NCBI GenBank assembly: GCA_002839605.1
Contig: PGYK01000002.1
Span: forward strand, 124,001 to 188,000
Reading direction: 5' to 3'
From: Methanomicrobiales archaeon HGW-Methanomicrobiales-3
GTDB taxonomy: Archaea > Halobacteriota > Methanomicrobia > Methanomicrobiales > Methanospirillaceae
DNA length: 64,000 nt
In this document: piece by piece, positions 9,966 through 27,440 of the stretch
Layout of the letters: the number at the start of each line of letters is the position of its first letter
Position numbering within the stretch: the first letter of the stretch is position 1
Made by a program: the position numbers and the translations under genes
Notes under the pieces: model-generated
The model's input: the letters and a program-made list of their open reading frames with translations, nothing else
The model's database searches: none
Told to the model about the DNA's origin: nothing

Positions 9966-11222
9966 CTACGGCCGGAAATCGATGAGCCATTTCCAGACCG
10001 GCATCACCTGTATCGTCACGTCCCCTTCCGTGATATACTCCTCCTGGTGATACGTGAGAATGAGGCCGGATTTCAGGTGGTTGGCTTGCAGGGCATTGAC
10101 AAGCCCGCCAGTCTCCCGGTCGCGGTTATCCTGCGAGAGTTCAAAGCAGACCTGGATGGCACTGGTGATCTTCCCCCGGTCTTCTGTGACAAAATCGCAT
10201 TCCTTTGGATTTTTGAAAAAGAAGACCGTCAGTCCCCGGCGCAAAAGTTCGATGAGGACGAGGTTCTCAAGAAGCCTGCCCCGGTCATCCGAAAACCGGA
10301 ATGCCACCGCATTGCGCATCCCGGTATCGATGCAGTAGAGTTTCTTTTCGTGGACATACTGTTTCTTGAGCGAGAAGTCGTACCGGAATATTTCAAAGAC
10401 CAGGTACGCTTCCTCAAGGAACCCGACATAGTCCCTGACCGACACCACGCTCTTGAACCCGAGGGTGTTTTTCAGGGCATTGTATGTCTGGGCATTTGCA
10501 AGGTTGGTGAAGATATACCGGGCGAGCTGGCGGAACCCCTTCACCTCCCGGATCCCATACCGGCTGATGATGTCCCGGTACAGGATGTCATCATAGGTCC
10601 GCTTGAGATAGTCAGGATCCTCAAACTTCAGGTACTCGGGAAATCCGCCGCCATCGAGATACCGATCGAATTCTGCAAGGATGGCGGCCTTCTTCTTCTC
10701 CGTGATCCGGCCGGGGGTCATGGACAAAAACCGCAGTACTTCCCGAAACGAGAACGGGTACAGGGTGATGACGGTGTACCGCCCGGTGAGCCGGGTGCCG
10801 AGTTCGGCCGAGAGGAGGTTTGCGTTGGACCCGGTGAGAAAGACCTTGTATCCTTCGTCATGGACCCGGCGGACGAACCGTTCCCAGCCGGTAACGTTCT
10901 GGACTTCATCGATGAAGAGGACTTTTGTGCCCGGGGAGGTCTTTTCGAAGACCAGCATGAGAGTGGGGAAGTCTGCTACCGTGAAGTCCATGAGCCGGTC
11001 GTCGTCGAAGTTGACGTATAAAAAATCGCTGTACTGTTCTGCGAGCTGGCGCATGAACGTTGATTTCCCGCACCTCCGTATGCCGGTGATGACGACAATG
11101 GCGCCACTCTTCGTAAACCGCCCGCAGTCGATCTCCCGGGGGATGCCCGGGTTGCGGGAAAGGAACGATTCTTTCTGGGATAGTACCAGTTCTTCGAGCT
11201 GCGGTGCGGAGATCATGTTCAT
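9966..11222 (-). CDS. AAA ATPase with DUF4143 (AAA_14 type)
   Basis: The 418-residue protein has Walker A GIRRCGKSTFMRQL near residue 52, Walker B VLFIDEVQNV with the typical 'W..FVR' follow-up, and a sensor segment FLTGSNANLLS. The C-terminal DUF4143 region contains RTYDDILYRDIISRYGI, a winged-helix-like segment, and a restriction-nuclease-like ending (ECDFVTED) that is common in this family. Such ATPases are abundant in archaea; their role is unknown, and a toxin-like or mobile-element link has been suggested. ATG 11222 is used; an in-frame TTG lies at 11228 and another ATG at 11216. The promoter overlaps two copies of a 13-bp repeat. Confidence 0.85.
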   Translation of the reverse strand: MNMISAPQLEELVLSQKESFLSRNPGIPREIDCGRFTKSGAIVVITGIRRCGKSTFMRQLAEQYSDFLYVNFDDDRLMDFTVADFPTLMLVFEKTSPGTKVLFIDEVQNVTGWERFVRRVHDEGYKVFLTGSNANLLSAELGTRLTGRYTVITLYPFSFREVLRFLSMTPGRITEKKKAAILAEFDRYLDGGGFPEYLKFEDPDYLKRTYDDILYRDIISRYGIREVKGFRQLARYIFTNLANAQTYNALKNTLGFKSVVSVRDYVGFLEEAYLVFEIFRYDFSLKKQYVHEKKLYCIDTGMRNAVAFRFSDDRGRLLENLVLIELLRRGLTVFFFKNPKECDFVTEDRGKITSAIQVCFELSQDNRDRETGGLVNALQANHLKSGLILTYHQEEYITEGDVTIQVMPVWKWLIDFRP

Positions 11223-11269
11223 TACCAATGTACACTTTTATCTGATTGTTTACATTACTAATGTATAAA
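11220..11269 (-). promoter_or_regulatory. ATPase promoter with two 13-bp operator-like repeats
   Basis: CATTACCAATGTA (11220-11232) and CATTACTAATGTA (11253-11265) differ at one base and are spaced 33 bp, about three helical turns. The minus-strand TATA element (TTTATACAT) lies in the upstream copy, and the downstream copy overlaps the start codon. This is a good layout for repression by a dimeric protein, possibly the ATPase itself. Confidence 0.5.
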
Positions 11270-11544: not shown

Positions 11545-11575
11545 TTAAAAAGGTGGGCAGGGGAGGTCCCCGCCC
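11545..11575 (-). terminator. Hairpin plus T-run terminator
   Basis: On the minus strand GGGC-GGGG / CCCC-GCCC (11555-11575) folds into a stem and is followed by TTTTTAATT. It lies 8 nt after the stop of the 40-residue peptide gene. Confidence 0.6.
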
Positions 11576-11583
11576 GGTTGTTC

Positions 11584-11706
11584 TTAGAACTTTCCTCCCA
11601 TGTGGTCGAGGACCCGGTCCCACATCACGAGGAGCCCGGGGATGATGACGTAGGCGATGAGCCCGGCGCCGAGGAAGGCGCCGGTGATGATGAGTTCGTT
11701 CTCCAT
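11584..11706 (-). CDS. 40-residue single-span membrane peptide
   Basis: ATG 11706 to TAA 11584 encodes a peptide with a hydrophobic span (LIITGAFLGAGLIAYVIIPG) and a short charged tail (MWDRVLDHMGGKF). Its ribosome site AAGGAGGGGG overlaps the stop codon of the upstream gene, so the two are transcribed and probably translated together. A hairpin terminator follows at once. The peptide may be a membrane partner of the upstream protein; function is unknown. Confidence 0.7.
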   Translation of the reverse strand: MENELIITGAFLGAGLIAYVIIPGLLVMWDRVLDHMGGKF

Positions 11707-11718
11707 GCTTCCCCCTCC

Positions 11719-12222
11719 TTACGCCAGCGCCGGGACGGTGTCCGCCCAGGTCTCGACTTTGGTCCGGATGGCGTCGTCCGAGTACGAGGTGAGGCTCACG
11801 CTCTCCCGGCCGAAGGTGACGAAGTACAGTTCCCCGTTGGGGTCGTGGCACTTGAGGGTGGCCGAGTAGGTCTCGTTTCCGAGATCCCGGACCGCCGTGC
11901 CCCCGTGGGCTGCGGCAAGGCCGGTGTCGGCGAGGAGCGCAGCGGCGCCGGCAGTGAACCCGGCGATGGTGTCGAACTTCGAGGAGTCGGTGCCCACGGT
12001 CTTTGCCTCCGTGTCCTGGTACACGAGTTTGGTGACGTAGTACTCCCTGGTCTTCTCAACGGCCGGGTGGGTGACGCCGGCAGTCATGTATTCCACGCAG
12101 CCGAACGGGTTTGTGGTGAGCACCGATGCGACGATGGCATCGAATGCCGCAACGTCCGTAATCGGGCTTGCGAGTGTTCTGAGTGCGGTCTTGACGGTTG
12201 TTTTCTGGATAAAGTCTGCCAT
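11719..12222 (-). CDS. Conserved protein of unknown function, with a truncated paralogue at 27.36 kb
   Basis: The 167-residue protein starts MADFIQKTTVKTALRTLASP (ATG 12222; the frame continues to 12336, but the 27.36-kb paralogue also starts at MADF). It is rich in Ala and Thr, has no signal peptide and no recognised catalytic motif. A C-terminal beta-rich part (NGELYFVTFGRESVSLTSYS) follows an Ala/Gly helical segment (FTAGAAALLADTGLAAAHGG). It is followed by a co-transcribed 40-residue membrane peptide and a terminator. The paralogue's place beside an integrated element suggests a mobile-element or virus-linked family, but this is inference. A TATA-like TATAAGTGTATG lies near 12340. Confidence 0.65.
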   Translation of the reverse strand: MADFIQKTTVKTALRTLASPITDVAAFDAIVASVLTTNPFGCVEYMTAGVTHPAVEKTREYYVTKLVYQDTEAKTVGTDSSKFDTIAGFTAGAAALLADTGLAAAHGGTAVRDLGNETYSATLKCHDPNGELYFVTFGRESVSLTSYSDDAIRTKVETWADTVPALA

Positions 12223-12776
12223 GTTTTTTCTCAACTCTTTTTGGTTTTGCTTGTTTTGTCCGGCAGGTCCTGCAGAACCTGGCGGGCGGGAAGAATCCAC
12301 GAGGATTCTTCGCGGTCTCCGGGGCCCCTTTGACATACACTTATACGTCGTGAAAGGGCTTAGTCGTGACTGAACCGCTGGTTTTTTTGGAAAACGGCCG
12401 GGTATGCGCAGCGGGTTTGGGGAATTACGTGAATATCGGGGGGCGATTATCCGGGAAAAAACGGGGTACTCGTTGCACCGGTTGCCACATGGGAGTGACC
12501 GGGATCATGGTACCTGTGACCGGCGGGAATTTTTCTTTACTACGATTGGACCAGTGGGGATTTATGCCCCGGCTCTGGTATCCGGAATGGGATATCGGGC
12601 CTGTCCTGGCAACGGAGGGGAACGATACGATCTCATCTCTTAAAAAAAAGAACGTTCCTTTCGGAGATCCTGACACTCTCCATGACATAGTTATGAATAT
12701 TGGGAGAAATACCAATACATACGAATCCGGAACTGACAATGGCACAAAATTATCAGAATTTTTTCCCGGTGCGTCC
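12223..12776. other. 554-bp divergent intergenic region
   Basis: It contains the putative promoter of the minus-strand gene near 12340 and the upstream region of the exported deaminase. An open frame in phase with the deaminase reaches back to 12366, but it has no protein-like character and precedes a clear signal peptide, so I treat it as non-coding. Confidence 0.5.
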
Positions 12777-14306
12777 ATGAAGCCGGGCAAGACGCTGCTC
12801 ACCCTCATTTTCATTATTGCGCTCACCAGCTGGTGTCCCGTAAGTTCGACAACGATCCCCTGTTTTATCAACCCGCTCTCACCGGATCACGACCTCGTTA
12901 TCATCGACCGTTACTTTGAATCTGTCCGTTCCGATCCAGAAGAGATCCGGGCATTTTTTTATACAATGCCAAAAGGCGGGGATCTCCACACCCATCTCTC
13001 CGGAAACGTCTATGCTGAGGACATCATCGACATCGCAGCCCGGCACAATCTCGTTGTCGACCCCGCAACCGGGCAACTCTTTGATCCCGCAACCGGACAA
13101 CCCTCTGGTGTGCAGATGCCAGCGTCAGTTGTCCCGGTCACTGCCGCATACAGCAATGCCACCCTGTATGACGCACTGGTTGGATCCTGGTCCATGCGGG
13201 ATTATATTCCGGGCAACCAGTCGGGACATGACCAGTTCTTTGGGACATTCGACCTGATCGACCCGGTAACGTATTACAATGGCGACGTCATAGCCACGAT
13301 CCGCAACCGGGCGGCAGACGAAAATATCCAGTATCTTGAGCTGATGACGTCCCAGACCGACACGGAACAGGTACACGAGATCGTAGCGGCCGTGGACTGG
13401 GATGACAACTTCAGCGTGATGCGAAAGAACCTCCTCGATGCGGGGCTCGATGAGATCATTGACCGGAAGGTGCGGACACATGAATTCTATGACCGGGAAT
13501 CGTGGGAACTCGCGAGCCCGGCGGGAAAGAATGTGACGGTACGGTATATCTATGAGGCCCTCCGGTTTTACCCGAAAAAAGAGGTTTTTGCCAATCTTCT
13601 CCAGGCATTTGAGATCGCCGACCGGTGCCCCGTAGTCGTTGGCATTAACTTAGTGGGCGATGAGGCTGACGATTATTCCCGGACCGATTACCACCTCCAC
13701 ATGGAGATGGTATCGTACCTTGCCTCGGTCTATCCCCAGGTCTCTGTCTCCCACCATGCCGGTGAGCTGACGTACGGTCTCGTCCCAGAAGAAGACCTCC
13801 GGTTCCATATAGCCGATGCGGTGTATACCGGAAAAGCCTCGCGGATAGGCCACGGGGTATCTATCCTTTCCGAAGATGCCTGGCAGGAAACCCTCGCTGA
13901 AATGAAAAAACGGGACATTCCTGTTGAGATTCTCCTGACCAGCAACGAACAGATCCTCTCGATCAGTGGTCATGACCACCCGGTATCGGTGTACCTGGAT
14001 CACCAGGTTCCGGTGGTGATTGCCACCGATGATCCGGGCATTGAGAGAACCGACCTGTCCGGGGAGTTTGTCAAGCTCACGCTCCAGCATCCTGAACTAC
14101 GGTATGAGGATATCCGTGCTATCACCATCAACAGCATCCGGTTCAGTTACCTCCCCGGGCCTGAGAAGGAACTGATGCTTGTGCAGTTTAATGAACGCCT
14201 TGAACCGTTCGAAAGATCGATTGCGAAACGAGAGCGGCCGTTCATGATTACGGCTCTCCCTTCATTCTTTAAGGAACCCTGCCGGGTGCAGGATACCGCC
14301 CTTTGA
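12777..14306 (+). CDS. Exported adenosine deaminase-like metal hydrolase
   Basis: The 509-residue protein starts at ATG 12777 with a signal peptide (MKPGKTLLTLIFIIALTSWC). The mature part has the amidohydrolase/adenosine deaminase ligands: GDLHTHLSGN (HxH), SVSHHAGEL (His), SRIGHGVSIL (His next to Gly) and VIATDDPGIERT (Asp pair). This set matches the adenosine deaminase/ADGF group, which converts adenosine or a related nucleoside to inosine plus ammonia using Zn2+. The export signal points to use of external nucleosides. A lipobox is not clear although Cys occurs at the end of the signal. True substrate may be another purine derivative. Confidence 0.85.
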   Translation: MKPGKTLLTLIFIIALTSWCPVSSTTIPCFINPLSPDHDLVIIDRYFESVRSDPEEIRAFFYTMPKGGDLHTHLSGNVYAEDIIDIAARHNLVVDPATGQLFDPATGQPSGVQMPASVVPVTAAYSNATLYDALVGSWSMRDYIPGNQSGHDQFFGTFDLIDPVTYYNGDVIATIRNRAADENIQYLELMTSQTDTEQVHEIVAAVDWDDNFSVMRKNLLDAGLDEIIDRKVRTHEFYDRESWELASPAGKNVTVRYIYEALRFYPKKEVFANLLQAFEIADRCPVVVGINLVGDEADDYSRTDYHLHMEMVSYLASVYPQVSVSHHAGELTYGLVPEEDLRFHIADAVYTGKASRIGHGVSILSEDAWQETLAEMKKRDIPVEILLTSNEQILSISGHDHPVSVYLDHQVPVVIATDDPGIERTDLSGEFVKLTLQHPELRYEDIRAITINSIRFSYLPGPEKELMLVQFNERLEPFERSIAKRERPFMITALPSFFKEPCRVQDTAL

Positions 14307-16881: not shown

Positions 16882-19239
16882 ATGATCACTGAGGCTGATA
16901 CCTGCCGAACTTACATCCTGCCCAAACTCTATGATGCAGGCTGGACCAACGAGCAGATCAGCGAACAGAAATCTTTCACCGACGGCCAGATTTTTGTTTC
17001 TGGAAATACAACCCAACGGGGAAAATCAAAACGTGCGGATTATCTCCTACGAATCACCAGGAATTTTCCTATAGCGGTCCTCGAAGCGAAAGCAGCGTAC
17101 AAAAAACCCGGTGACGGTCTTCAGCAGGCCAAAGATTACGCAAAAATTCTCGATCTGAGATTTGCCTACGCAACAAACGGTCATCGCATCATTGAATACG
17201 ACGACATCACTCACCTCGAACGCGAGATCGATAAATTTCCAACCCCTGACGAACTCTGGAAACGCCTTAAACAGGTAGATGGAATTGCGGATGACGTTGG
17301 AGAGAAGATCCTCGAACCATTCCATCATATTGCAGGGAAGACACCCAGGTATTATCAGGAGATAGCGATCAACCGGTCGATCAAGGAGATTTACCGGAAT
17401 CGGAAACGTATCCTCCTCACTCTCGCAACGGGAACCGGGAAGACATTCATAGCATTTCAGATCATCTGGAAGATCTGGAACCAGCGCTGGAACCGGACTG
17501 GAGAACATCGGCGGCCGAAGGTGCTGTATCTCGCTGACCGGAACGTACTGATTGATCAGCCTAAGGATAATGTCTTCACCGACTTTGGCGACGCCCGATG
17601 GAAGATTCAGGGCGAAGCAAACAAGAGTCGCGACCTGTACTTCTCGACATACCAGGCAATCGCCGGCGATGAAAACCGGAAAGGACTGTACAAGGAGTAC
17701 AGCCCGGAATTTTTTGATTTCATTGTCGTGGATGAGTGTCATCGAGGCAGCGCAAAAGATGACGGGAACTGGCGCGAGATCCTCGATTATTTTTCTCCTG
17801 CGGTAAAACTCGGGATGACCGCAACCCCGCTCCGGACCGATAACGTCGATACGTACCAGTATTTCGGCAACCCGATTTACACGTACACGCTCAAGCAGGG
17901 GATCGAGGATGGATTCCTTGCACCGTACCGGGTCCACCGGATTGTGAGTTCAGTTGATGCGACCGGCTGGCGTCCCTACAAAGGTCAGAAAGACAAGTTT
18001 GGTAATGAGATCCCCGGTGGCGTTTATGAGACGCCGGACTTCGAGCGGATCATCTCGTTCCGAAAACGAACCGAAGCGGTTGCCCGTCACCTGTCAGAGT
18101 ACCTGAAAAAAGACGATCGGTTTGCCAAAACGATTGTTTTCTGCGTTGACCAGGAACACGCTGATGAGATGCGACGGGCACTCTCGAATATCAACGCCGA
18201 CCTGATAGGGAAATATCCCTCGTATGTTGTGCGGATCACTTCTGAAGAAGGAGATATTGGCAGAGGATTCCTTGATCAGTTCATGGATATCGAGACGATT
18301 ACCCCGGTCATCGCGACGACATCGAAATTGCTGACAACCGGTGTCGATATCCCGACCTGTAAGAACATCGTGATCTTCACAACGATTAACTCCATGACCG
18401 AGTTCAAACAGATCATCGGGCGAGGGACACGCATCCGGGCGGATTACGATAAGCTGTTCTTCACGATTCTCGACTATACTGGCAGTGCGACGCGGTTATT
18501 TGCGGATCCGGATTTCGACGGGGAACCGATTACGCTCACTGAAGAAGAGATAGATGAGAATGGCGACCCGGTATCTGCAACCGAACCGGTCGTCCAGCCG
18601 GTCCCTGAACCGGACCTCAAGCCCCGGGAAAAATGGAGGCCGAAGATCTCGAATGATGATGAAGGCAGGAACCGGAAGTATTACGTTGATGATCTTCAGG
18701 TTGAGATCACGACAGAGATGGTCTACGAACTCGACAGCAGCGGCAACCGGCTCCGGACCATCGAGTTTACGGATTACACCCGGGAACAGGTGAAGAAATT
18801 ATTCCCGTCGTTCGATATTCTCCGGTCCCACTGGACAACATCGGATGAGCGGAAAGCGATTGTCGATAGTCTCGCGGATCGCGGGATATCGTTCGAGCAT
18901 CTCGTGGAAGTTACGAAACACCCGGAGGCCGATCCTTTCGATCTCCTCTGTCACGTCGCATACAATACACCCATCCGAACCAGGAAGGAACGGGCCGAGA
19001 AGGTAAAGAAAGAGCGGATGGCGTTTTTTGAGAAATATAGTCTGCCCGCCCGGGAGATCTTGCAGGAGATTCTCGACAAATATACCGAGTACGGGTTCGA
19101 GCAGATCGACAACATGAACATTCTCAAAGTCCCACCGATAAGCAGACACGGGAACGTGATGGAGATCGCGCAGGCATTCGGGGGAGTTCCCGAGCTGAAG
19201 AAGGCACTCGCGGATCTCCAGACAATGATTTACGCATAA
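16882..19239 (+). CDS. hsdR: Type I restriction enzyme R subunit
   Basis: The 785-residue protein has an N-terminal HsdR nuclease region (RADYLLRITRNFPIAVLEAK, the PD...ExK core). SF2 helicase motifs follow: Walker A LATGTGKTFIAF near residue 181, VVDECHRGSA near 282, MTATPL, and motif VI IIGRGTRIR. The C-terminus is of EcoEI type. It is the DNA-translocating and cleaving subunit; with HsdM and HsdS it cuts DNA lacking the host methylation pattern. Length is usual for the EcoEI-like subgroup. ATG 16882 follows an AT-rich promoter (TTTTTTATG and ATATAAATG between about 16853 and 16872). Confidence 0.95.
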   Translation: MITEADTCRTYILPKLYDAGWTNEQISEQKSFTDGQIFVSGNTTQRGKSKRADYLLRITRNFPIAVLEAKAAYKKPGDGLQQAKDYAKILDLRFAYATNGHRIIEYDDITHLEREIDKFPTPDELWKRLKQVDGIADDVGEKILEPFHHIAGKTPRYYQEIAINRSIKEIYRNRKRILLTLATGTGKTFIAFQIIWKIWNQRWNRTGEHRRPKVLYLADRNVLIDQPKDNVFTDFGDARWKIQGEANKSRDLYFSTYQAIAGDENRKGLYKEYSPEFFDFIVVDECHRGSAKDDGNWREILDYFSPAVKLGMTATPLRTDNVDTYQYFGNPIYTYTLKQGIEDGFLAPYRVHRIVSSVDATGWRPYKGQKDKFGNEIPGGVYETPDFERIISFRKRTEAVARHLSEYLKKDDRFAKTIVFCVDQEHADEMRRALSNINADLIGKYPSYVVRITSEEGDIGRGFLDQFMDIETITPVIATTSKLLTTGVDIPTCKNIVIFTTINSMTEFKQIIGRGTRIRADYDKLFFTILDYTGSATRLFADPDFDGEPITLTEEEIDENGDPVSATEPVVQPVPEPDLKPREKWRPKISNDDEGRNRKYYVDDLQVEITTEMVYELDSSGNRLRTIEFTDYTREQVKKLFPSFDILRSHWTTSDERKAIVDSLADRGISFEHLVEVTKHPEADPFDLLCHVAYNTPIRTRKERAEKVKKERMAFFEKYSLPAREILQEILDKYTEYGFEQIDNMNILKVPPISRHGNVMEIAQAFGGVPELKKALADLQTMIYA

Positions 19240-19335
19240 TTCAGGTGATTTTTTACGGTAAAATCAAAGAAGACCGAGACTCCGGTCACGACCGGGCAAC
19301 AGCTGGCGAGCATCGTCAAGGCGTGCCGGGACATC

Positions 19336-20811
19336 ATGCGCAAGGACAAGGGCCTGAACGGGGACCTTGACCGGCTCCCGATGCTGACCTGGATCATGTT
19401 CCTGAAGTTTCTCGATGACATGGAGAAGATCCATGAGACCGAGGCACAACTGAAAGGAAAAACTTTCGTCCCTGCCATCGAGCCACCGTACCGCTGGCGT
19501 GACTGGGCAGAGAAGTCCGATGGCATCACGGGTGACGACCTGATCGCGTTTGTGGACCAGGACGAGGCAATGCGCCCGGATAGCACAAAGGGAAAGGGCC
19601 TGTTCAAGTACCTCGAATCCCTGCATGGAGAAAATGGAGGCGACCGTCGTGATGTGATCGCAACAGTCTTCCGGGGAACCGTGAACCGTATGATCAATGG
19701 GTACCTGCTCCGCGACGTTGTAAATAAGATCAATAACATTCACTTCACCTCTTCGGAAGAAATCCACACTCTTTCGCATCTCTATGAATCTATGCTGAAG
19801 GAGATGCGAGACGCGGCAGGAGATTCCGGCGAGTTCTATACCCCGCGTCCTGTTGTGCAGTTCATTGTCGAAGTCATCGACCCAAAGATCGGCGAAACGA
19901 TACTTGATCCAGCGTGCGGAACCGGTGGTTTCCTTGTCGAGACGTTCGAACATCTGAAGAAACAGGAGAAGACGACCAAGGATCACGAGCGTATCCAAAA
20001 AGGTTCGATTTTCGGCGGTGAAGCAAAGTCATTACCGTATCTCCTTGCGCAGATGAACCTCCTTCTCCACGGGCTTGAATCCCCGAAGATTGATCCGCAG
20101 AATTCTCTGCGGTTCCCTCTCCGTGAGATCGGTGATACTGAACGGGTGGACGTGATCGTGACGAATCCGCCGTTCGGAGGCGAGGAGGAGAAGGGAATTC
20201 TTGGGAATTTCCCGGAGGACAAACAGACCTCCGAGACAACGCTCCTATTCCTACAACTCATAATGAGGAAACTTAAGCGCAGTGCCTCCGGGAAGAAGGG
20301 CGGGCGTTGCGGGATGGTCGTACCGAATGGAATGCTCTTTGGCGATGGCATCGGTGCTCGAATAAAGGAAGATCTTCTCCGGGATTTTAACCTTCATACG
20401 ATCGTCCGGCTGCCGAAGGGAGTCTTTTCTCCCTACACTGATATCGAAACAAATCTTCTGTTCTTTGATCATGGCGATCCAACAAAAGAAATCTGGTATT
20501 ATCAGGTACCACTTCCCGAAGGACGAAAGACGTACACCAAAACGAAACCAATGAAGTTTGAAGAATACGCACCGGTGCTCGCATGGTGGAAGAATCGAGC
20601 CGAGAGCGAGCAGGCTTGGAAAGTTCCTGTCGATGCTGTTCTTGAAAACAATTTCAACCTCGATATCAAGAATCCGAATTCGGCAAAGATGGATGAGCAC
20701 CGCGAACCCGAAGAGATTGTGGTCGTGATTGTCGAGAAGGAACAGCGGATCATCACGCTGATGCAAGAGATCCAGATGGAGATAGGAAAGGGTCGGGGTA
20801 ATGCAGAGTAA
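19336..20811 (+). CDS. hsdM: Type I restriction-modification methyltransferase subunit
   Basis: From ATG 19336 the product has 491 residues. It shows the HsdM helical N-domain (DIMRKDKGLNGDLDRLPML), the SAM-binding motif DPACGTGGFLVETF near residue 192 and the catalytic NPPF (VTNPPFGGEEE) near 274. It methylates adenine in the target chosen by HsdS. The true N-terminus is almost certainly longer: the same frame is open from 19249 and reads KSKKTETPVTTGQQLASIVK just ahead, which resembles known HsdM N-termini. AGGTGA at 19243-19248 is a perfect ribosome site for a start near 19255. No ATG, GTG or TTG exists there in frame. Confidence 0.93.
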   Translation: MRKDKGLNGDLDRLPMLTWIMFLKFLDDMEKIHETEAQLKGKTFVPAIEPPYRWRDWAEKSDGITGDDLIAFVDQDEAMRPDSTKGKGLFKYLESLHGENGGDRRDVIATVFRGTVNRMINGYLLRDVVNKINNIHFTSSEEIHTLSHLYESMLKEMRDAAGDSGEFYTPRPVVQFIVEVIDPKIGETILDPACGTGGFLVETFEHLKKQEKTTKDHERIQKGSIFGGEAKSLPYLLAQMNLLLHGLESPKIDPQNSLRFPLREIGDTERVDVIVTNPPFGGEEEKGILGNFPEDKQTSETTLLFLQLIMRKLKRSASGKKGGRCGMVVPNGMLFGDGIGARIKEDLLRDFNLHTIVRLPKGVFSPYTDIETNLLFFDHGDPTKEIWYYQVPLPEGRKTYTKTKPMKFEEYAPVLAWWKNRAESEQAWKVPVDAVLENNFNLDIKNPNSAKMDEHREPEEIVVVIVEKEQRIITLMQEIQMEIGKGRGNAE

Positions 20812-21970
20812 TGTCCCGAGGGTGAAACTCGGTGAGGTACTCACTCATCGAGGAGATTTCATCACCGTTAATGATTTGCAATTGTACAGACGTGTGACCG
20901 CACAACTCCATGCAAAGGGGATTATTCTCCGTGACGAGATTGACGGGTCACTAATCAAAACAAAGAAACAAAGGGTGTGTAGAGCGGGCGATTTTCTTGT
21001 TGCGGAGATTGATGCAAAACTTGGGGGTTTTGGGATAGTTCCCCCATATCTCGAAGGATCGATTGTCAGTTCTCACTATTTTCTATTCGAAATAGATGAA
21101 ACGAAACTTGAAAGAGAATATCTGGATTTTTTTATCAGGACTGAGGAGTTTCAGAAACAGATTACCGCACGAGGTTCAACAAATTATGCAGCGATCAGAC
21201 CTCCCGATGTTTTACAACTGGAAATTCCTCTTCCTTCGGTTAAAGAACAGCGGCGAATTGTTGCGACGCTTGAAAGGTTGTTTAATGATGTTAATGCGGC
21301 AAGAAAAGAGCGAGCCGCATCTATTAAAGAATTGGAAACACTCCAATCCCAAATAAAAAATACTGCATTTCCTAAACCTCACACAACGACTGTCGGAGAA
21401 TTTGTCAGATTCCAAACCGGTTATGCGTTCAAGAGTGAGTGGTTCAGTGAGGAAGGAATCCGATTAGTACGGAATGCAAACATAGGACATGGCAATATCG
21501 ATTGGTCTGACACAATGCGAATCCCTGAATCACTCCGAAAACAATTCGGAAATTTTGAACTTCGAATGGGGGATATCCTGGTCTCATTGGATCGTCCCAT
21601 TATCTCAACAGGTGTTAAAGTTGCAAAGGTATCAGAAGCTGATCTTCCCAGCCTTTTGTTACAGCGCGTTGCTCGGGCTCAATTCGACGAGAATAAGGTA
21701 GATGTAAATTATTTTTTCCACTGGCTGACGTCGCCGAATTTTATTACTGCAATCAATCCTGGTCGTAGCAGCGGAGTTCCGCATATCTCCCATAAAGAAA
21801 TTGAGAGGATTCCTTTTTCGCTACCACCATTCAAAGAGCAGCGCCGTATCGTCGCCCGTCTCGATCGATTGCAGGACAAGGTTGATGAGGTGAAACGGCT
21901 GCAGGCTGAGACAGAGCGGGAGATGGTGGCGCTGGTACCGGCGGTGCTGGCGAAGGCGTTTGGGAATTGA
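20801..21970 (+). CDS. hsdS: Type I restriction-modification specificity subunit
   Basis: The 389-residue protein overlaps hsdM by 11 bp. Two target-recognition domains are visible, each followed by a helical spacer with the HsdS signature PSVKEQRRIVATLERLFNDV (first) and PPFKEQRRIVARLDRLQDKV (second). Each domain reads one half of a bipartite recognition site. The recognition domains are more AT-rich than the neighbouring hsdM, as expected for fast-evolving specificity genes. Confidence 0.95.
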   Translation: MQSNVPRVKLGEVLTHRGDFITVNDLQLYRRVTAQLHAKGIILRDEIDGSLIKTKKQRVCRAGDFLVAEIDAKLGGFGIVPPYLEGSIVSSHYFLFEIDETKLEREYLDFFIRTEEFQKQITARGSTNYAAIRPPDVLQLEIPLPSVKEQRRIVATLERLFNDVNAARKERAASIKELETLQSQIKNTAFPKPHTTTVGEFVRFQTGYAFKSEWFSEEGIRLVRNANIGHGNIDWSDTMRIPESLRKQFGNFELRMGDILVSLDRPIISTGVKVAKVSEADLPSLLLQRVARAQFDENKVDVNYFFHWLTSPNFITAINPGRSSGVPHISHKEIERIPFSLPPFKEQRRIVARLDRLQDKVDEVKRLQAETEREMVALVPAVLAKAFGN

Positions 21971-21977
21971 TATTTAA

Positions 21978-23615
21978 TTATTTAAGAAATTCACTTTCAA
22001 GAAAATCTAATAAATTGGCAGAACGGGTTAGAATTTCCCGATAAATGTCTTGATATCTCTTTTTACCGATTCCCCACTTTTTCGCCACCGATTCATACTC
22101 TCTACCTTTCCTATGGCTTGTTGATGTAGATTTTAAACTTTGAAGGTCCCTCAAAAATTGGATATGACTCTCAAAGTTTTTCACTCCTTTTTCGGATAGG
22201 AAGCGATAAAATTTAGAAATCCCTCTCTCGTCTTGTTCCTTCGATGATAATTGTTCTCCAAGTTTTGCTTCGTTTATTGAATCAATGATTACCTTGGTAA
22301 TCGCTAATACCAGTTCGTCAAATTCTGACTGACTTTCTTTGAGAGGAACACGAATTTTATTAAAGAAGTGACTATCGCTTTTACCGAGTGGAAGAAAAAG
22401 ATCCCACCCAAGTTTCTTCATCCACGATTCTTGGAATCTCTCGAATTTTCCTTTGAAAATGAGATCCTCCATTGAGGGGTCAGTCCATTCAGCTGCAAAA
22501 CCTCTTTTAAATGCAACCTCACTGAAGCCTCCATCCGGTTTTACGTTGAAACTTCTCCAATACCTTTGTTCAGATATTGAAAGATGCCCAAGATCTCCGA
22601 GCATTACAATAACGTATTTTTCATGATTATTATCTAACCTCAACGACCACAATCCCCCACAAAATAGATTCCCGTCGTGAATGGAATATTTTTCAGTATT
22701 TGCGTAATATTTTTCCAGTACTTCACGTTTAAAAAAAACTGGTGTTACATAATTTGGTTTTCCTTTGTTTTTTCCAAAAAAATTCGCCAATTTTTCTTCA
22801 TCACAGGAAAATAAAATTTCTTTTCCTTCTGAATCAACACCAATGATAAATTCCAGGTATTCATCGTGTTTGACCCCACACGGATCAAATGTCTCTGGAT
22901 CAAAATCATCCAAACCTGAAATTATTTTTTTTCCTAATAGTCTGCTAAAAATAACTGTATCATCACGTTTACGAGGATCGTCAGAAATACTAATTTCGCA
23001 AGTTACAAAATTTGTTTGTTTAATATCTCGAATAATCTCATCGCCAAGTTCTGAAAATTTTCCTGATAAAAACCGATCGACATTGAAGTACAAAACCAAA
23101 TTTGCGTTCTTTACAGCAAGGTATTCTTTAAGATATTTTGCATTGATCTGAATCAATTCATCAGAAATTCTGATAACATCCTCTTCTTCCCCATCATCGA
23201 GAATAATTATGAATTTCTTTTCATGTTCATCGAAATATAGGTTATATAAATGCCGAAATTCTTCAGACAGATCAAAAAATGCCTTTTTTATTCCATGAAA
23301 GTGCCGTTGGATCAGTATTGGTTCAATTCCATCCTCTCGTCCATATCGTAAATATTTGGCATCAGTCATCTTCCCTCGACCATAACTAATAATGTGCCCA
23401 GGGTAAAAGCTTGCAATATCGATTTCCCATTCATATTGTGATAAAATTTGTTCAGTTGAAGTTTTTGGGGCGATAGCTGAAAAAAGGAAGAAATCATCAT
23501 CAGTATCAGGGATTTTATCGTGTAAATAAAGGGGAATCCAGGCATCGGTTCCTAATTTTTCTTGAATGAATCGATACCAATCATTCATATGAGGATCAAT
23601 TTTTTGCATTGTCAT
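21978..23615 (-). CDS. Large AT-rich protein of unknown function next to the RM system
   Basis: This is a 545-residue soluble protein. Segments include WIPLYLHDKIPDTDDDFF, PNYVTPVFFKREVLEKYYAN, a block FCGGLWSLRLDNNHEKYVI followed by MLGDLGHLSISEQRYWRSFN, and a helical C-terminus with STSHRKGREYE. I recall proteins with the 'PVFF..EVL.KYY' and 'LGDL..L...EQ.YW' blocks as hypotheticals in accessory regions but know no assigned function. The C-terminal helical bundle may be HEPN-like; this is weak. Codon use is AT-rich, unlike the host core, and its end is 7 bp from the hsdS end (convergent), so it probably moved in with the RM system. Confidence 0.7.
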   Translation of the reverse strand: MTMQKIDPHMNDWYRFIQEKLGTDAWIPLYLHDKIPDTDDDFFLFSAIAPKTSTEQILSQYEWEIDIASFYPGHIISYGRGKMTDAKYLRYGREDGIEPILIQRHFHGIKKAFFDLSEEFRHLYNLYFDEHEKKFIIILDDGEEEDVIRISDELIQINAKYLKEYLAVKNANLVLYFNVDRFLSGKFSELGDEIIRDIKQTNFVTCEISISDDPRKRDDTVIFSRLLGKKIISGLDDFDPETFDPCGVKHDEYLEFIIGVDSEGKEILFSCDEEKLANFFGKNKGKPNYVTPVFFKREVLEKYYANTEKYSIHDGNLFCGGLWSLRLDNNHEKYVIVMLGDLGHLSISEQRYWRSFNVKPDGGFSEVAFKRGFAAEWTDPSMEDLIFKGKFERFQESWMKKLGWDLFLPLGKSDSHFFNKIRVPLKESQSEFDELVLAITKVIIDSINEAKLGEQLSSKEQDERGISKFYRFLSEKGVKNFESHIQFLRDLQSLKSTSTSHRKGREYESVAKKWGIGKKRYQDIYREILTRSANLLDFLESEFLK

Positions 23616-23717
23616 TCAACTCGCACTCGTGGCATTTTACTATTTTATGTCATATAACATATCATGCATTCTTATCTTGAAAATTAATTTGCCATTTCTT
23701 CATTAAAAAAAGGGGTT

Positions 23718-23864
23718 TTACCATCGGTGGCCAGACCACCAGAAACTCAGAGCAAAACCTCCAACGAGAACAAGCCATCCCGCAGGATTTCCTGCGACGA
23801 TGAAGAATGCACCAACAAGGATTGCTGCTGCCGGGCCGGTACCTGCACTCAAATTCGGAAACAT
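23718..23864 (-). CDS. 48-residue membrane peptide
   Basis: ATG 23864 to TAA 23718 encodes MFPNLSAGTGPAAAILVGAF and continues with two hydrophobic stretches (AAILVGAFFIVAG, WLVLVGGFALSFWW) ending HRW. An AGGAGGTGAT ribosome site, among the strongest in the window, sits 8 nt upstream (23873-23880 on the complement), and an AT-rich promoter element (TTAAATAT) lies near 23905. It stands alone between the 545-residue gene and the divergent CARF-like gene. Role unknown; a small membrane-active peptide fits the setting. Confidence 0.6.
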   Translation of the reverse strand: MFPNLSAGTGPAAAILVGAFFIVAGNPAGWLVLVGGFALSFWWSGHRW

Positions 23865-23954
23865 ATTGGTATCACCTCCTGAGGGAGTATTTGTATCAAG
23901 GCGATATTTAACCCTGAATAAGTTATTTAGATAAAAAAACTAAATATGGTTTAA

Positions 23955-24707
23955 ATGACCCGGGCCTCACTCTTCAAACTCCGTGTTCACATTGTACCTG
24001 TCGGGTTTGAAATTGACCGGGTGATCGAGCCACTCATCCGGTTTAAGGCAGACAAGGTTTGGTTGATCATCGAAGAAAATATCGAGACCAGCGATGCGAA
24101 TTACCACTACCAGGAAATTAAACGCCGATTAAGCGAGATCGATATGAAATTCGATGAACGGAGATGCCAGTTCAGGGCTCTGTTCGAATTATTAAATGAA
24201 TACCGGATTATCATCGAGCAAGAACATGAACACGAGATTTTTATCAACGTCTCTACCGGAAACAAGATCGAGGCGATCGCCGGCATGATGGCGGCGATGA
24301 TGTTTCATTCTGATAAAATCAGCATAACTCCTTATTATGCGGTCCCGAAAAATTACGAAATAAAACCCAAAGAGGGCGAACAGTTTACCAGCGGTTACAA
24401 AGATGTAATCCAGTTGCCGAATTACAGAATTGAACGTCCGAAAGAACATCTCGTGGCCGCGCTGAAAATAATTAAAGAGAGCGGGATAGTAAGCAAGAAG
24501 GAGCTCATTGAGATATTTCTATCAAAGAAGCTGATCGTAATCGAGAAAATTAATCATTCTGAGTCTGCCAAGCATTCCCAGTTGAATAAGAAGTTTTTAG
24601 AACCCTTGAACGAGAAAAAATTCATCGAAATTGAAGGTAAGGGGAAAGCAGCCCGTATAAAAATCTCTATTGACGGAGAGAATATATTGAAGTTTTTACC
24701 GAAATAA
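23955..24707 (+). CDS. CARF-like domain/winged-helix regulator (HFX_2341/DUF6293-like)
   Basis: The 250-residue protein begins with a Rossmann-like segment (VHIVPVGFEIDRVIEPLIRF, KADKVWLIIEEN). It then has IFINVSTGNKIEAIAGMMAA, the glycine-containing ligand-binding strand typical of CARF domains. Residues from about 165 form a winged helix (IIKESGIVSKKELIEIF ... HSQLNKKFLEPL). This layout is that of archaeal HFX_2341-family (DUF6293) regulators, relatives of Csa3. It may sense a cyclic oligonucleotide or other nucleotide and control transcription. No CRISPR array or cas gene is in the window. Its stop lies 2 bp from the convergent 432-residue gene. Confidence 0.7.
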   Translation: MTRASLFKLRVHIVPVGFEIDRVIEPLIRFKADKVWLIIEENIETSDANYHYQEIKRRLSEIDMKFDERRCQFRALFELLNEYRIIIEQEHEHEIFINVSTGNKIEAIAGMMAAMMFHSDKISITPYYAVPKNYEIKPKEGEQFTSGYKDVIQLPNYRIERPKEHLVAALKIIKESGIVSKKELIEIFLSKKLIVIEKINHSESAKHSQLNKKFLEPLNEKKFIEIEGKGKAARIKISIDGENILKFLPK

Positions 24708-24709
24708 TC

Positions 24710-26008
24710 TTACAAATTTCCTAAAAAATCCATGAGGTCCGGTGCCCTCTGGGGGACAACAATGTTGTCCATGATATCCGGATTTTCCTGAATTGCGGCC
24801 TTTGTGTTGAGATATTTCTTTACCGATTTTGTCTCGCTGATTGTCTTCTTTGTCCGTTCCACTTCGAGATGCATCAGGGTGCTATTCAGGAACTGGTTAA
24901 CCGCGTTGTCCTTCAATAACGTAGAGTCTGAAATCGGCAATGACTGAGGATAATGATCAAGATTCAGGTAATAATAGGAATCAGGGTCGAAGATGCGGTG
25001 TTTGTGAAAAGTGTGAGCTTCAAGATAAGCGTCCTTAGTTGCGAAGTTATTTTTACTGGCCCGTTCTGCAAGTGCATCGTCATTGTATAAATTACCTAAA
25101 AATGGTCGCCATGGTTCCCGGTCGGTCCCTATGAAATCTGCCCCTAAAAATTGAGTTAGGATGTCGGAAGCTGCAGCTTTATTTTCTTGAACATGTGGCA
25201 GAAGTTCCTTTTTAATATGGGAGAAATATAGGGTAGCGTTGGAATTTCCCATAATCTTGTCAATGAGATGAATTATTGTTTTCAGTCGGGATGAATATGT
25301 ATCATTACAAGACTTGGCATCGAAGTCGATCCAGATATTAGTGTAACCCTGAGTTTTATAATGAGACAGGATCGCCTCTAGATTTTTCTTGGATAATTCA
25401 ATATGCAGGGGAGCAAAAATCGGCCGGTTATTGCGGTCCATTAGGATTTTGATGCTCTGATCGACAAAGGCAAGATACTGGGTTGTATTGATATCGTCCT
25501 TTTTTTCAAGCCGGACATCAGGACATAACACAAACGCCTTCGATGCTGAATGAATATAATCGAGCAGGCATATGTAGCTGTTTTCATCAAGACCCGGAAA
25601 TGTTTTTTTTGTCTCGCCGGAGCCTACTGAAAATTCTTTAAATGGATTTTTTGGGAAGACTAGGGATACCGTTGTCAATGCGGAATTCCACATGCGCTTT
25701 TTTATATTGAAAAAAGAGTCGAGACCGTGAACCCGGTCGGGGCCTGCCTCATTCAGCAGATGGTAGAGAGAATTCCAGCTGCGGATATCAGTGATAAATT
25801 TCTGGTATTCCAGGAATGGTTGTGCTATCATTCCGGAAACCGGAGAGACATCCTCAACGTTAATCCCGTTCCCGGCCAGAACCTTGAACGGTGTCTCTAT
25901 CTTCCGCCGGAGATGTTCAATCTCGATCTGTTTGATGTAATAATCGCCGTCTTTTGCGTGCGTGATCGGATCAATGGAAATATGGGGATCAAACTCACGC
26001 GCTGACAT
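24710..26008 (-). CDS. 432-residue protein of unknown function, third gene of the Panacea-PIN operon
   Basis: No family is recognised. The middle of the protein shows regularly spaced strand-like blocks, each with polar residues at the end: KAFVLCPDVRLE, NRPIFAPLHIELSK, YTNIWIDFDAKS, NATLYFSHIKKE and GADFIGTDREP. This spacing is compatible with a TIM barrel such as tRNA-guanine transglycosylase relatives, but I cannot confirm it. The C-terminus is helical and charged. Its start overlaps the end of the PIN-like gene by 14 bp, so it is translated with it. It could be a nucleic-acid-modifying effector or a sensor for the operon. Confidence 0.6.
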   Translation of the reverse strand: MSAREFDPHISIDPITHAKDGDYYIKQIEIEHLRRKIETPFKVLAGNGINVEDVSPVSGMIAQPFLEYQKFITDIRSWNSLYHLLNEAGPDRVHGLDSFFNIKKRMWNSALTTVSLVFPKNPFKEFSVGSGETKKTFPGLDENSYICLLDYIHSASKAFVLCPDVRLEKKDDINTTQYLAFVDQSIKILMDRNNRPIFAPLHIELSKKNLEAILSHYKTQGYTNIWIDFDAKSCNDTYSSRLKTIIHLIDKIMGNSNATLYFSHIKKELLPHVQENKAAASDILTQFLGADFIGTDREPWRPFLGNLYNDDALAERASKNNFATKDAYLEAHTFHKHRIFDPDSYYYLNLDHYPQSLPISDSTLLKDNAVNQFLNSTLMHLEVERTKKTISETKSVKKYLNTKAAIQENPDIMDNIVVPQRAPDLMDFLGNL

Positions 26009-26573
26009 GATAGTTCCTAATATATTCGATCGCAGGCATAAGGATTGTCCTCAAAATCTCGGGATCGATGCTGCACGGGCGTTGTTTTTCCCCGCTTATA
26101 AGCACATTCTCAATTTTCAGGAGAAATTCGAGTGCCTGGGCCGGGGTAATCTTCTGATCTTCACAACAGGCAACCTGAACAAATCCGATTGTTCCTTTCA
26201 CACGGGGTGCAAGGTTCCTGAAATGTTTTTTCGCAAACTTATTGGGGCGGCGGTCATCGAGAATCAGGAAGCGGAGTCTGCCCTGTGCATCCAGCATATA
26301 CCCGATACCGATTGCTTCATATTCCCCGTCATTGATATGACGCGGGTTTCTGCCAAAAAAGGGTTTGATGAGCTGATAATAGTCAAAATTGTACGTTGTA
26401 ACGCTGCGGGTAAAATCCCCGTCATTCGTGAGTCGTTCGGGTAACTCACCTAAGATTTTGTCACCGAGGAAGAAGGGATATGCCGAAAGAAACCGGAAAA
26501 GGATATCCTTGCGTTTGATATCACAGGCACAACAGCTGTAAAACGTTGAATCAGCGGCGACAGAATCTCTCAT
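25995..26573 (-). CDS. PIN-like domain protein (putative toxin RNase)
   Basis: The 192-residue protein opens SVAADSTFYSCCACDIKRKD (first acidic residue of a PIN core). It continues FLSAYPFFLGDKILGELPER (Gly...Glu), then DGEYEAIGIGYMLD (Glu-Ala-Ile helix) and FLILDDRRPNKFAKKHF (the DD pair before a helix). These four acidic positions in this order are the metal site of PIN nucleases as in VapC. A cysteine pair after the first block is unusual. The gene begins 2 bp after the Panacea-like gene, the place expected for the toxin. Confidence 0.65.
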   Translation of the reverse strand: MRDSVAADSTFYSCCACDIKRKDILFRFLSAYPFFLGDKILGELPERLTNDGDFTRSVTTYNFDYYQLIKPFFGRNPRHINDGEYEAIGIGYMLDAQGRLRFLILDDRRPNKFAKKHFRNLAPRVKGTIGFVQVACCEDQKITPAQALEFLLKIENVLISGEKQRPCSIDPEILRTILMPAIEYIRNYHVSA

Positions 26574-26574
26574 T

Positions 26575-27150
26575 TCAGTTGCTCGCCATGAGGTCTTCGT
26601 ACCGCTCTGCGTCGATATATCCCTTCTTTACAAGATTATCTGCCAGTTTCTTTTTTGATTTCTGGATGCCGTCAAAAACGTTTGATTTTTTCTGATATTC
26701 GGGGTACGTATCATAAATGAGAAGAAGCAATTCTTCGGGACTGAGCTTGTCATAGAGTTCGCGGACCATCTTCATGGCTGCGAGGATCGGGCCCATCTGC
26801 GGATTTGCGGAACTTGCAGCATAGAGACGCTTGTACTCGGACCTGCCTTGGGTCGTCAGCTCTACATATCCCCCGGTAAGGGTATCATACCGTGCAGGTG
26901 GAATGTACGTCCAGCAGTTAATGAGGTAAAAGGGATTCCTGATAATCTGTTCAATCTCTTCTGAATACGGGCCCCGGTAATGAGAGATGAATCTCATGAA
27001 TTTCTTGATATCGGGATGGAAATTCCAGATGAAGAATGCTTCCTTTTCCAGATGGAGGATAGAGATTTTCTGGTCCTCGGCACCCAGAAGTAAGAGGATG
27101 AGATGTTCCAGCGCCCTGGACCTCGTGTCTGCTGCGTTTCTCTGTTGCAT
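26575..27150 (-). CDS. Panacea-like (SocA/DUF4065-type) antitoxin candidate
   Basis: The 191-residue protein has the block ISILHLEKEAFFIWNFHPDI followed by ISHYRGPYSEEIEQIIRNPF. This resembles the Panacea core, where a Lys-containing helix is followed by an aromatic 'GP' loop and a helix. A second helical half ends KKLADNLVKKGYID. Panacea domains neutralise many unrelated toxins, so its position as first gene of a three-gene operon with a PIN-like protein supports the antitoxin role. The upstream region 27151-27240 contains CGAA-TTT-TTCG and GTTTATGATAAAC inverted repeats suited to self-repression. Confidence 0.6.
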   Translation of the reverse strand: MQQRNAADTRSRALEHLILLLLGAEDQKISILHLEKEAFFIWNFHPDIKKFMRFISHYRGPYSEEIEQIIRNPFYLINCWTYIPPARYDTLTGGYVELTTQGRSEYKRLYAASSANPQMGPILAAMKMVRELYDKLSPEELLLLIYDTYPEYQKKSNVFDGIQKSKKKLADNLVKKGYIDAERYEDLMASN

Positions 27151-27240: not shown

Positions 27241-27354
27241 AGCGAAATTGATTTTTTCCTGTTTTACCAGTGGATCCGCTCCCTTCAGTAAAACCTAAGC
27301 CCCGCCTCCCACAGAGTACTATTCAGCCCAAGGGCCCAAGGGCGGGAGAAACGT

Positions 27355-27440
27355 ATGGCAGATTTCGTACAGAGTGCAAATGTCAAGAGTGCAGTCCGCA
27401 CCCTTGCAGAATCCATTGCGGATGTCGCGACGTACGGGCA
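27355..27440 (+). pseudogene. Truncated 5' copy of the 12.2-kb unknown gene
   Basis: ATG 27355 reads MADFVQSANVKSAVRTLAES then IADVATY, closely matching the N-terminus of the protein encoded at 11719-12222. After about 27438 similarity stops and the sequence runs into the end of the oppositely oriented gene of the integrated element (stop at 27462). GGGCGGGAG about 7 nt upstream still looks like a ribosome site. The rest of the gene is absent from the window, so an insertion or deletion joined the two sequences here. Confidence 0.7.

Follow-up and report, generated by a model that had tools for sequence, protein, structure and literature searches.

Nearly all well-assembled genomes of the archaeal order Methanomicrobiales (123 of 132, ~93%) encode a soluble protein, here called P1, and in 79 of the 96 copies whose downstream DNA was profiled (a sample weighted to Methanoregula) a conserved membrane protein is encoded directly 3' of it. 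The reading that we favour, and to which we give close to an even chance, is that P1, an alpha+beta protein of the cytosol that is well expressed, docks on the membrane through an anchor which is translated along with it and can be swapped. Such docking is the simplest reading that covers the pairing, coupling, topology, swapping and constraint described below; the contact between P1 and the peptide, the membrane location and the abundance we infer.

The window, that is, the whole analysed stretch of 64,000 nucleotides, carries the unit on its minus strand. The P1 gene (11719..12222) encodes 167 aa starting with MADFIQK and is followed by the gene for a 40-residue membrane peptide (11584..11706, MENELIITGAFLGAGLIAYVIIPGLLVMWDRVLDHMGGKF), here called type A, with one hydrophobic span and a predicted N-out/C-in orientation. 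An earlier note on this DNA had proposed such a two-gene unit of a soluble protein and a tiny membrane peptide, and both frames are present; its name 'MADF protein' describes the first four residues of P1 and not a MADF domain. The ribosome site AAGGAGGGGG (11711..11720, minus strand) overlaps the P1 stop codon, again as proposed. At the junction, TAAGGAGGGGGAAGCATG, the Shine-Dalgarno sequence (SD) shares bases with this stop, an arrangement which suggests that translation of the peptide is coupled to that of P1. The peptide ATG lies in the P1 reading frame by happenstance, and in the 28 type-A units the peptide starts a median of 13 nt after the P1 stop. Beyond the peptide gene, an intrinsic-terminator-like hairpin leads into a T run (11555..11575, minus strand; GGGCGGGGACCTCCCCTGCCC-ACCTTTTT, 8-bp stem, fold z -3.17), which bears out the terminator of the earlier note. 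An AAA/DUF4143 ATPase gene (9966-11228) lies on one side of the unit, with an adenosine-deaminase-like gene (12366-14306) on the other. Neither family is prominent among the neighbours of other P1 copies, and a comparison of neighbours by clustering alone revealed no recurrent family beside most P1 loci except G3 and G4 (see below). An Rfam scan of the window gave a tRNA as its sole match. Elsewhere in the window, a lower-GC island (16882-27150, GC down to 36%) contains a type I restriction set, one gene that matches a CARF-like/DUF6293 regulator and a candidate for the middle component of an ABC-3C system; it is probably a defence island.

P1 is acidic and soluble (pI 4.8, 17.7 kDa, GRAVY 0.04, overall not hydrophobic), and its N-terminus has no hydrophobic signal-like stretch. 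The family is defined by a length of ~167 aa and a set of conserved residues (F27, N38, C42, Y62, C125-D127, GE130-131, SY146-147, I152 and W159), both of which the window copy has. The 2.59 Mb home genome encodes nine full copies, that of the window included; the eight others are located elsewhere in the genome and share 36-72% identity with it. Within the class, P1 was present in 193 of 232 genomes with 1 to 17 copies each. P1 relatives occur in the named genera Methanoregula, Methanolinea, Methanoculleus and Methanocalculus; the window would accordingly derive from a methanogen of the Methanoregulaceae, probably Methanoregula itself. In a phylum-wide sample, matches were confined to Methanomicrobiales genomes, with none among ~230 other Halobacteriota genomes. 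Thus P1, a dispersed multi-copy chromosomal family, appears as far as searched to be restricted to this order. We found no paper describing it.

The window additionally contains an N-terminal P1 fragment (27279..27435, plus strand), which is a truncated copy of the P1 paralogue on C12, a contig of the home genome; it extends over promoter, leader and the initial ~27 codons and is not a working gene. The earlier note had placed a paralogue beside a replication element; a D5-type primase/helicase gene indeed adjoins, but the paralogue is this truncated 5' piece. A second lone 5' copy (C12:67361-67456) precedes the intact C12 P1 gene by 1.7 kb, with a ComEC-like metallo-hydrolase gene in between. 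Both lone copies look like insertion or duplication scars. The P1 5' end was considered as a general integration site and rejected, with direct repeats of this end near the gene found just at the home C12 locus and at 1 of 76 other loci.

The membrane proteins encoded behind P1 are of several kinds. A search of homologues that included short frames found a small single-span peptide directly 3' of P1 in 73 of the 96 copies, so homologues do not always occur as single genes; had they done so, this would have counted against the unit proposed in the earlier note. Type A stands behind 28 copies and type B (54-63 aa, METEILGIVLGAVLPIYPMLFAIYQKIGKYDEVVEEFKKL...) behind 39, starting a median of 91 nt past P1 with its own SD. 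In 34 of the 39 type-B units a third gene, G3 (~158 aa), comes next, and in 31 a fourth gene, G4, is also present (~195 aa, about 4 hydrophobic spans, hence 4-TM). Two rarer peptides, type D (4/96) and type E (2/96), the latter in the most diverged genus, complete the set, and in 6/96 copies G4 follows P1 immediately with no peptide between. G4 is confined to the home family among the sampled genomes and is often decayed. The G3 model is beta-rich and sandwich-like, of moderate confidence (pLDDT 76.7); its best, weak structure match was a Wzt protein with a sugar-binding domain (E 0.005).

Relatives of the peptide recur in the same position behind P1 in many species, most copies match the profile at E of about 1e-16 to 1e-28, and the median dN/dS of type A is 0.23; the peptide is therefore real beyond chance. 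Median dN/dS values were 0.24 for P1, 0.21 for type B, 0.16 for G3 and 0.18 for G4, indicating that all five are translated and constrained. Lysine and arginine are almost absent before the span in all four peptide types and number 1.5-5.7 on average after it. By the positive-inside rule, this bias predicts N-out/C-in for all four.

Against docking stand the 17 of 96 copies with no recognised downstream partner, three divergent home-genome paralogues included. Four of these, the Methanoculleus-type copies L081, L086, L097 and L106, carry upstream, on the opposite strand, a gene for a small coiled-coil protein with a C-terminal span; L107 has a similar gene downstream. With these five set aside, ~12 of the 17 have none. 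The coiled-coil protein of Methanoculleus and relatives (~81 aa, MPEEKTTREMVYEISRDVKWI...) is transcribed away from P1 and occurs upstream on the other strand at L078, L081, L086, L097, L100, L102, L105 and L106. It weakly matches the phage family phrog_1103 (E 9e-5). Two further arrangements were observed. At G081 C1:2343649-2345623 and G137 C1:2428931-2433934, type-A units form clusters, seemingly tandem, that include truncated P1 genes. At C16:125135-125236 of the home genome there is a lone type-A-like peptide (58% identity over 33 residues), for which the genome search reported no P1 match nearby.

The library searches returned no known family for P1. Comparisons with Pfam, NCBIfam, PHROG, PADLOC and PDB sequences gave nothing significant, and identity with a known family was rejected on results that were empty or sub-threshold. 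The nearest candidate was DUF1508, which matched 6 of 85 P1 members below the cut-off. The best score among the matches listed was 14.5 bits against a Pfam gathering score of 22, so membership in DUF1508/YegP was rejected at this curated cut-off; a profile search found no PDB member. The AlphaFold model of P1 (85-row alignment) is confident, with pLDDT 94.7 and pTM 0.85, and its secondary-structure order is E-H-EEEE-HH-EEEE-H. Foldseek searches of PDB and BFVD gave no match with E below 0.001. Two matches serve as leads only: PH1819, a CYTH-like protein, as the best in PDB (E 0.015), and a giant-virus TBP-like protein (probability 0.95, TM 0.38). The fold may be new; beyond PDB and BFVD, a distant match to a cellular fold is conceivable, as is an unnamed database entry. 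The P1 system is thus without a matching known kind in the libraries searched, a newness that does not amount to a proven new function.

Sets of a soluble and a membrane protein resemble those of membrane-containing viruses, and the earlier note had likened the pair to viral structural or holin-like genes. P1 could then be the coat or matrix protein of a domesticated or remnant virus or vesicle module, with the peptide or G4 as its membrane or holin-like part; the D5 primase gene beside the P1 5' fragment and the phrog_1103 match of the divergent coiled-coil neighbour would fit. However, P1 relatives are absent from PHROGs, IMG/VR and INPHARED as well as from PLSDB, type A and G3 have none in IMG/VR, only G3 and G4 recur beside most copies, and the family is chromosomal and near-universal in the order. 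A capsid-like fold, for which the earlier note had suggested checking, was rejected because the confident model has no significant capsid match in BFVD or PDB. With nothing significant from the sequence searches or from the BFVD fold library, we rejected a viral origin as a candidate and consider the viral reading highly improbable. No holin family match was found, nor a lysis-gene context among the clustered neighbours, where no family recurs except G3 and G4; a holin is less likely than membrane docking.

To follow the partners through the family, we mapped their labels onto a P1 tree with 95 proteins, with shuffled labels as control. Partner type changed at least 25 times (possible minimum 7, shuffled mean 53.5), so the anchors look interchangeable. 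Within Methanoregula, A and B-G3-G4 units are interleaved on several well-supported branches, which points to a constant soluble subunit whose membrane component is exchanged.

Partner exchange is also known in toxin-antitoxin families. The hydrophobic peptide might accordingly damage the membrane and be neutralised by P1, which is translated first. Such a system would share the gene order (the soluble protein ahead of the tiny membrane peptide, tightly coupled), the many scattered copies, some with decayed partner genes, and the exchange itself. Yet about 93% of the well-assembled genomes of the order retain P1, which sometimes stands alone; a 4-TM protein or a three-gene cassette can take the place of the peptide, which is as constrained as P1; and no known toxin-antitoxin or defence family was matched, in PADLOC included. 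A toxin-antitoxin-like function therefore seems very unlikely to us. Less far-fetched, while still unlikely, is that P1 is a cytosolic metabolic or ligand-binding protein and the peptide a separate protein that shares its strong promoter. Solo P1 copies and the distance and separate SD of type B are in line with this. Promoter sharing alone, however, hardly explains why several peptide types with one predicted topology occupy the same position and why swaps are confined to membrane proteins. The docking reading draws on the frequent downstream membrane protein, purifying selection, the partner changes, the K/R bias, the SD over the stop, the low GRAVY and acidic pI of P1, and the codon usage and private leader element considered next.

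Codon adaptation was scored against ribosomal and mcr genes with a background of 258 genes. The six main P1 copies of the home genome ranked in the 82nd-94th percentile; type-A peptides reached the 92nd-100th. Upstream of the window P1 gene, the leader contains the element TGTCAAAGGGGCCCC and two clear hairpins, the first formed by GAAGAATCC-TCGT-GGATTCTTC (12290..12311, minus strand) and the second by CCGCCAGGTTCTGCAGGACCTGCCGG (12260..12285, minus strand). Close downstream of the predicted transcription start lies an operator-like, P1-family-specific dyad, TGTCAAAGGGGCCCCGGAGACC (12314..12335, minus strand), whose outer arm is imperfect in the window copy. A GC palindrome with complementary flanking arms was found in 72 of 95 P1 leaders, versus 13-23 shuffled leaders and 31 of 96 coding controls; the window copy, with an outer arm of just three bases, is outside the 72. 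The palindrome varies (GGGCGCCC, GGGGCCCC, GGGCCC, CCCGGG), and the arms differ in sequence as well (TGTC/GACA, TGTCC/GGACA, GCCC/GGGC and others). In the 2.59 Mb home genome, the exact core TGTCMAAGGGN{0,2}CCC occurs only before three P1 copies.

Both the loop-free core and the poor RNA fold of the dyad favour a DNA operator close to where transcription starts. Under any reading of P1, the dyad could instead be an RNA hairpin that controls translation: it lies just past the predicted transcription start, and in Methanoculleus-type leaders its 3' arm runs into AGGAG. We hold this to be rather unlikely, least so where the arm reaches the SD, given that the core is a complete palindrome, that the arms are largely symmetric and that the window copy folds worse as RNA than its shuffles (z +1.7). 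Long Methanoregula leaders (e.g. L096, L063, L030) string together different hairpins (GAAGAATTC..GAATTCTTC, AGATCCGGAGGATCT, GAGGTTCGGAGAACCTC), as if these were gained and lost as units. In draft genomes, some P1 copies lie 330-335 bases from a contig end (L060 335, L072 332, L090 335), a spacing which suggests a repeated upstream region that breaks assembly.

According to the docking model, its co-translated anchor would keep P1 attached to the inner surface of the cytoplasmic membrane. In the window, this would be the 40-residue peptide, with its acidic N-terminus outward, a single span and a short WDRVLDH-type tail on the cytosolic side that would bind P1. Elsewhere the role would fall to type B with its helical tail, usually followed by the beta-sandwich-like G3 and the 4-TM protein, to the two further peptide types, or to the 4-TM protein alone. 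Expression would probably be set by the family-specific dyad at the transcription start together with the structured leader. Lineages would retain several P1-anchor pairs and exchange anchors, so that each pair is probably a membrane-associated assembly of shared design and different attachment. From the many copies and their private control element, we would guess at conditional use of different versions. The full picture, an order-wide membrane-docked assembly with an unseen fold, interchangeable anchors or a four-gene cassette and a private regulatory dyad, we put forward tentatively, as possible rather than probable.

Methanomicrobiales are major methane producers, and nearly all keep P1, often in many constrained copies, with a partner so short that gene finders may overlook it. 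The anchor swaps offer a natural series in which the recruitment of soluble partners by small membrane proteins can be studied, and the units are a defined gene set in cultured genera such as Methanoculleus. Should P1 turn out to have a structural or protective role, an undescribed area of archaeal cell biology would become accessible.

Among known systems, the MspA sheath protein of Methanospirillum has a signal peptide, a mass of 40.6 kDa and amyloid character (PMC6242892). Like P1, it belongs to this order and has several paralogues per genome (PMC6242892), whereas P1 has 17.7 kDa and no signal-like start; P1 was rejected as the M. hungatei sheath protein because the sheath paper names another protein (PMC6242892). 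TBP-like and CYTH-like folds both weakly resemble P1 in the structure search, at non-significant E-values; P1 is acidic, unlike the DNA-binding TBP. With DUF1508/YegP (UPF0339), a ~30-residue stretch of some P1 copies can be aligned at 13-15 bits. Toxin-antitoxin and phage holin units share the short hydrophobic peptide, the tight two-gene unit and the scattered copies, but the P1 unit differs in its 4-TM substitute, its near-universal soluble gene and its lack of matches in PADLOC, PHROGs and Pfam. A known general class consists of small membrane proteins with one span to which soluble partners are docked. The P1 unit is like these in that a tiny single-span protein, predicted N-out/C-in by charge, is encoded beside a soluble partner; it differs in that no sequence relation was found and in that several anchors serve one soluble family.
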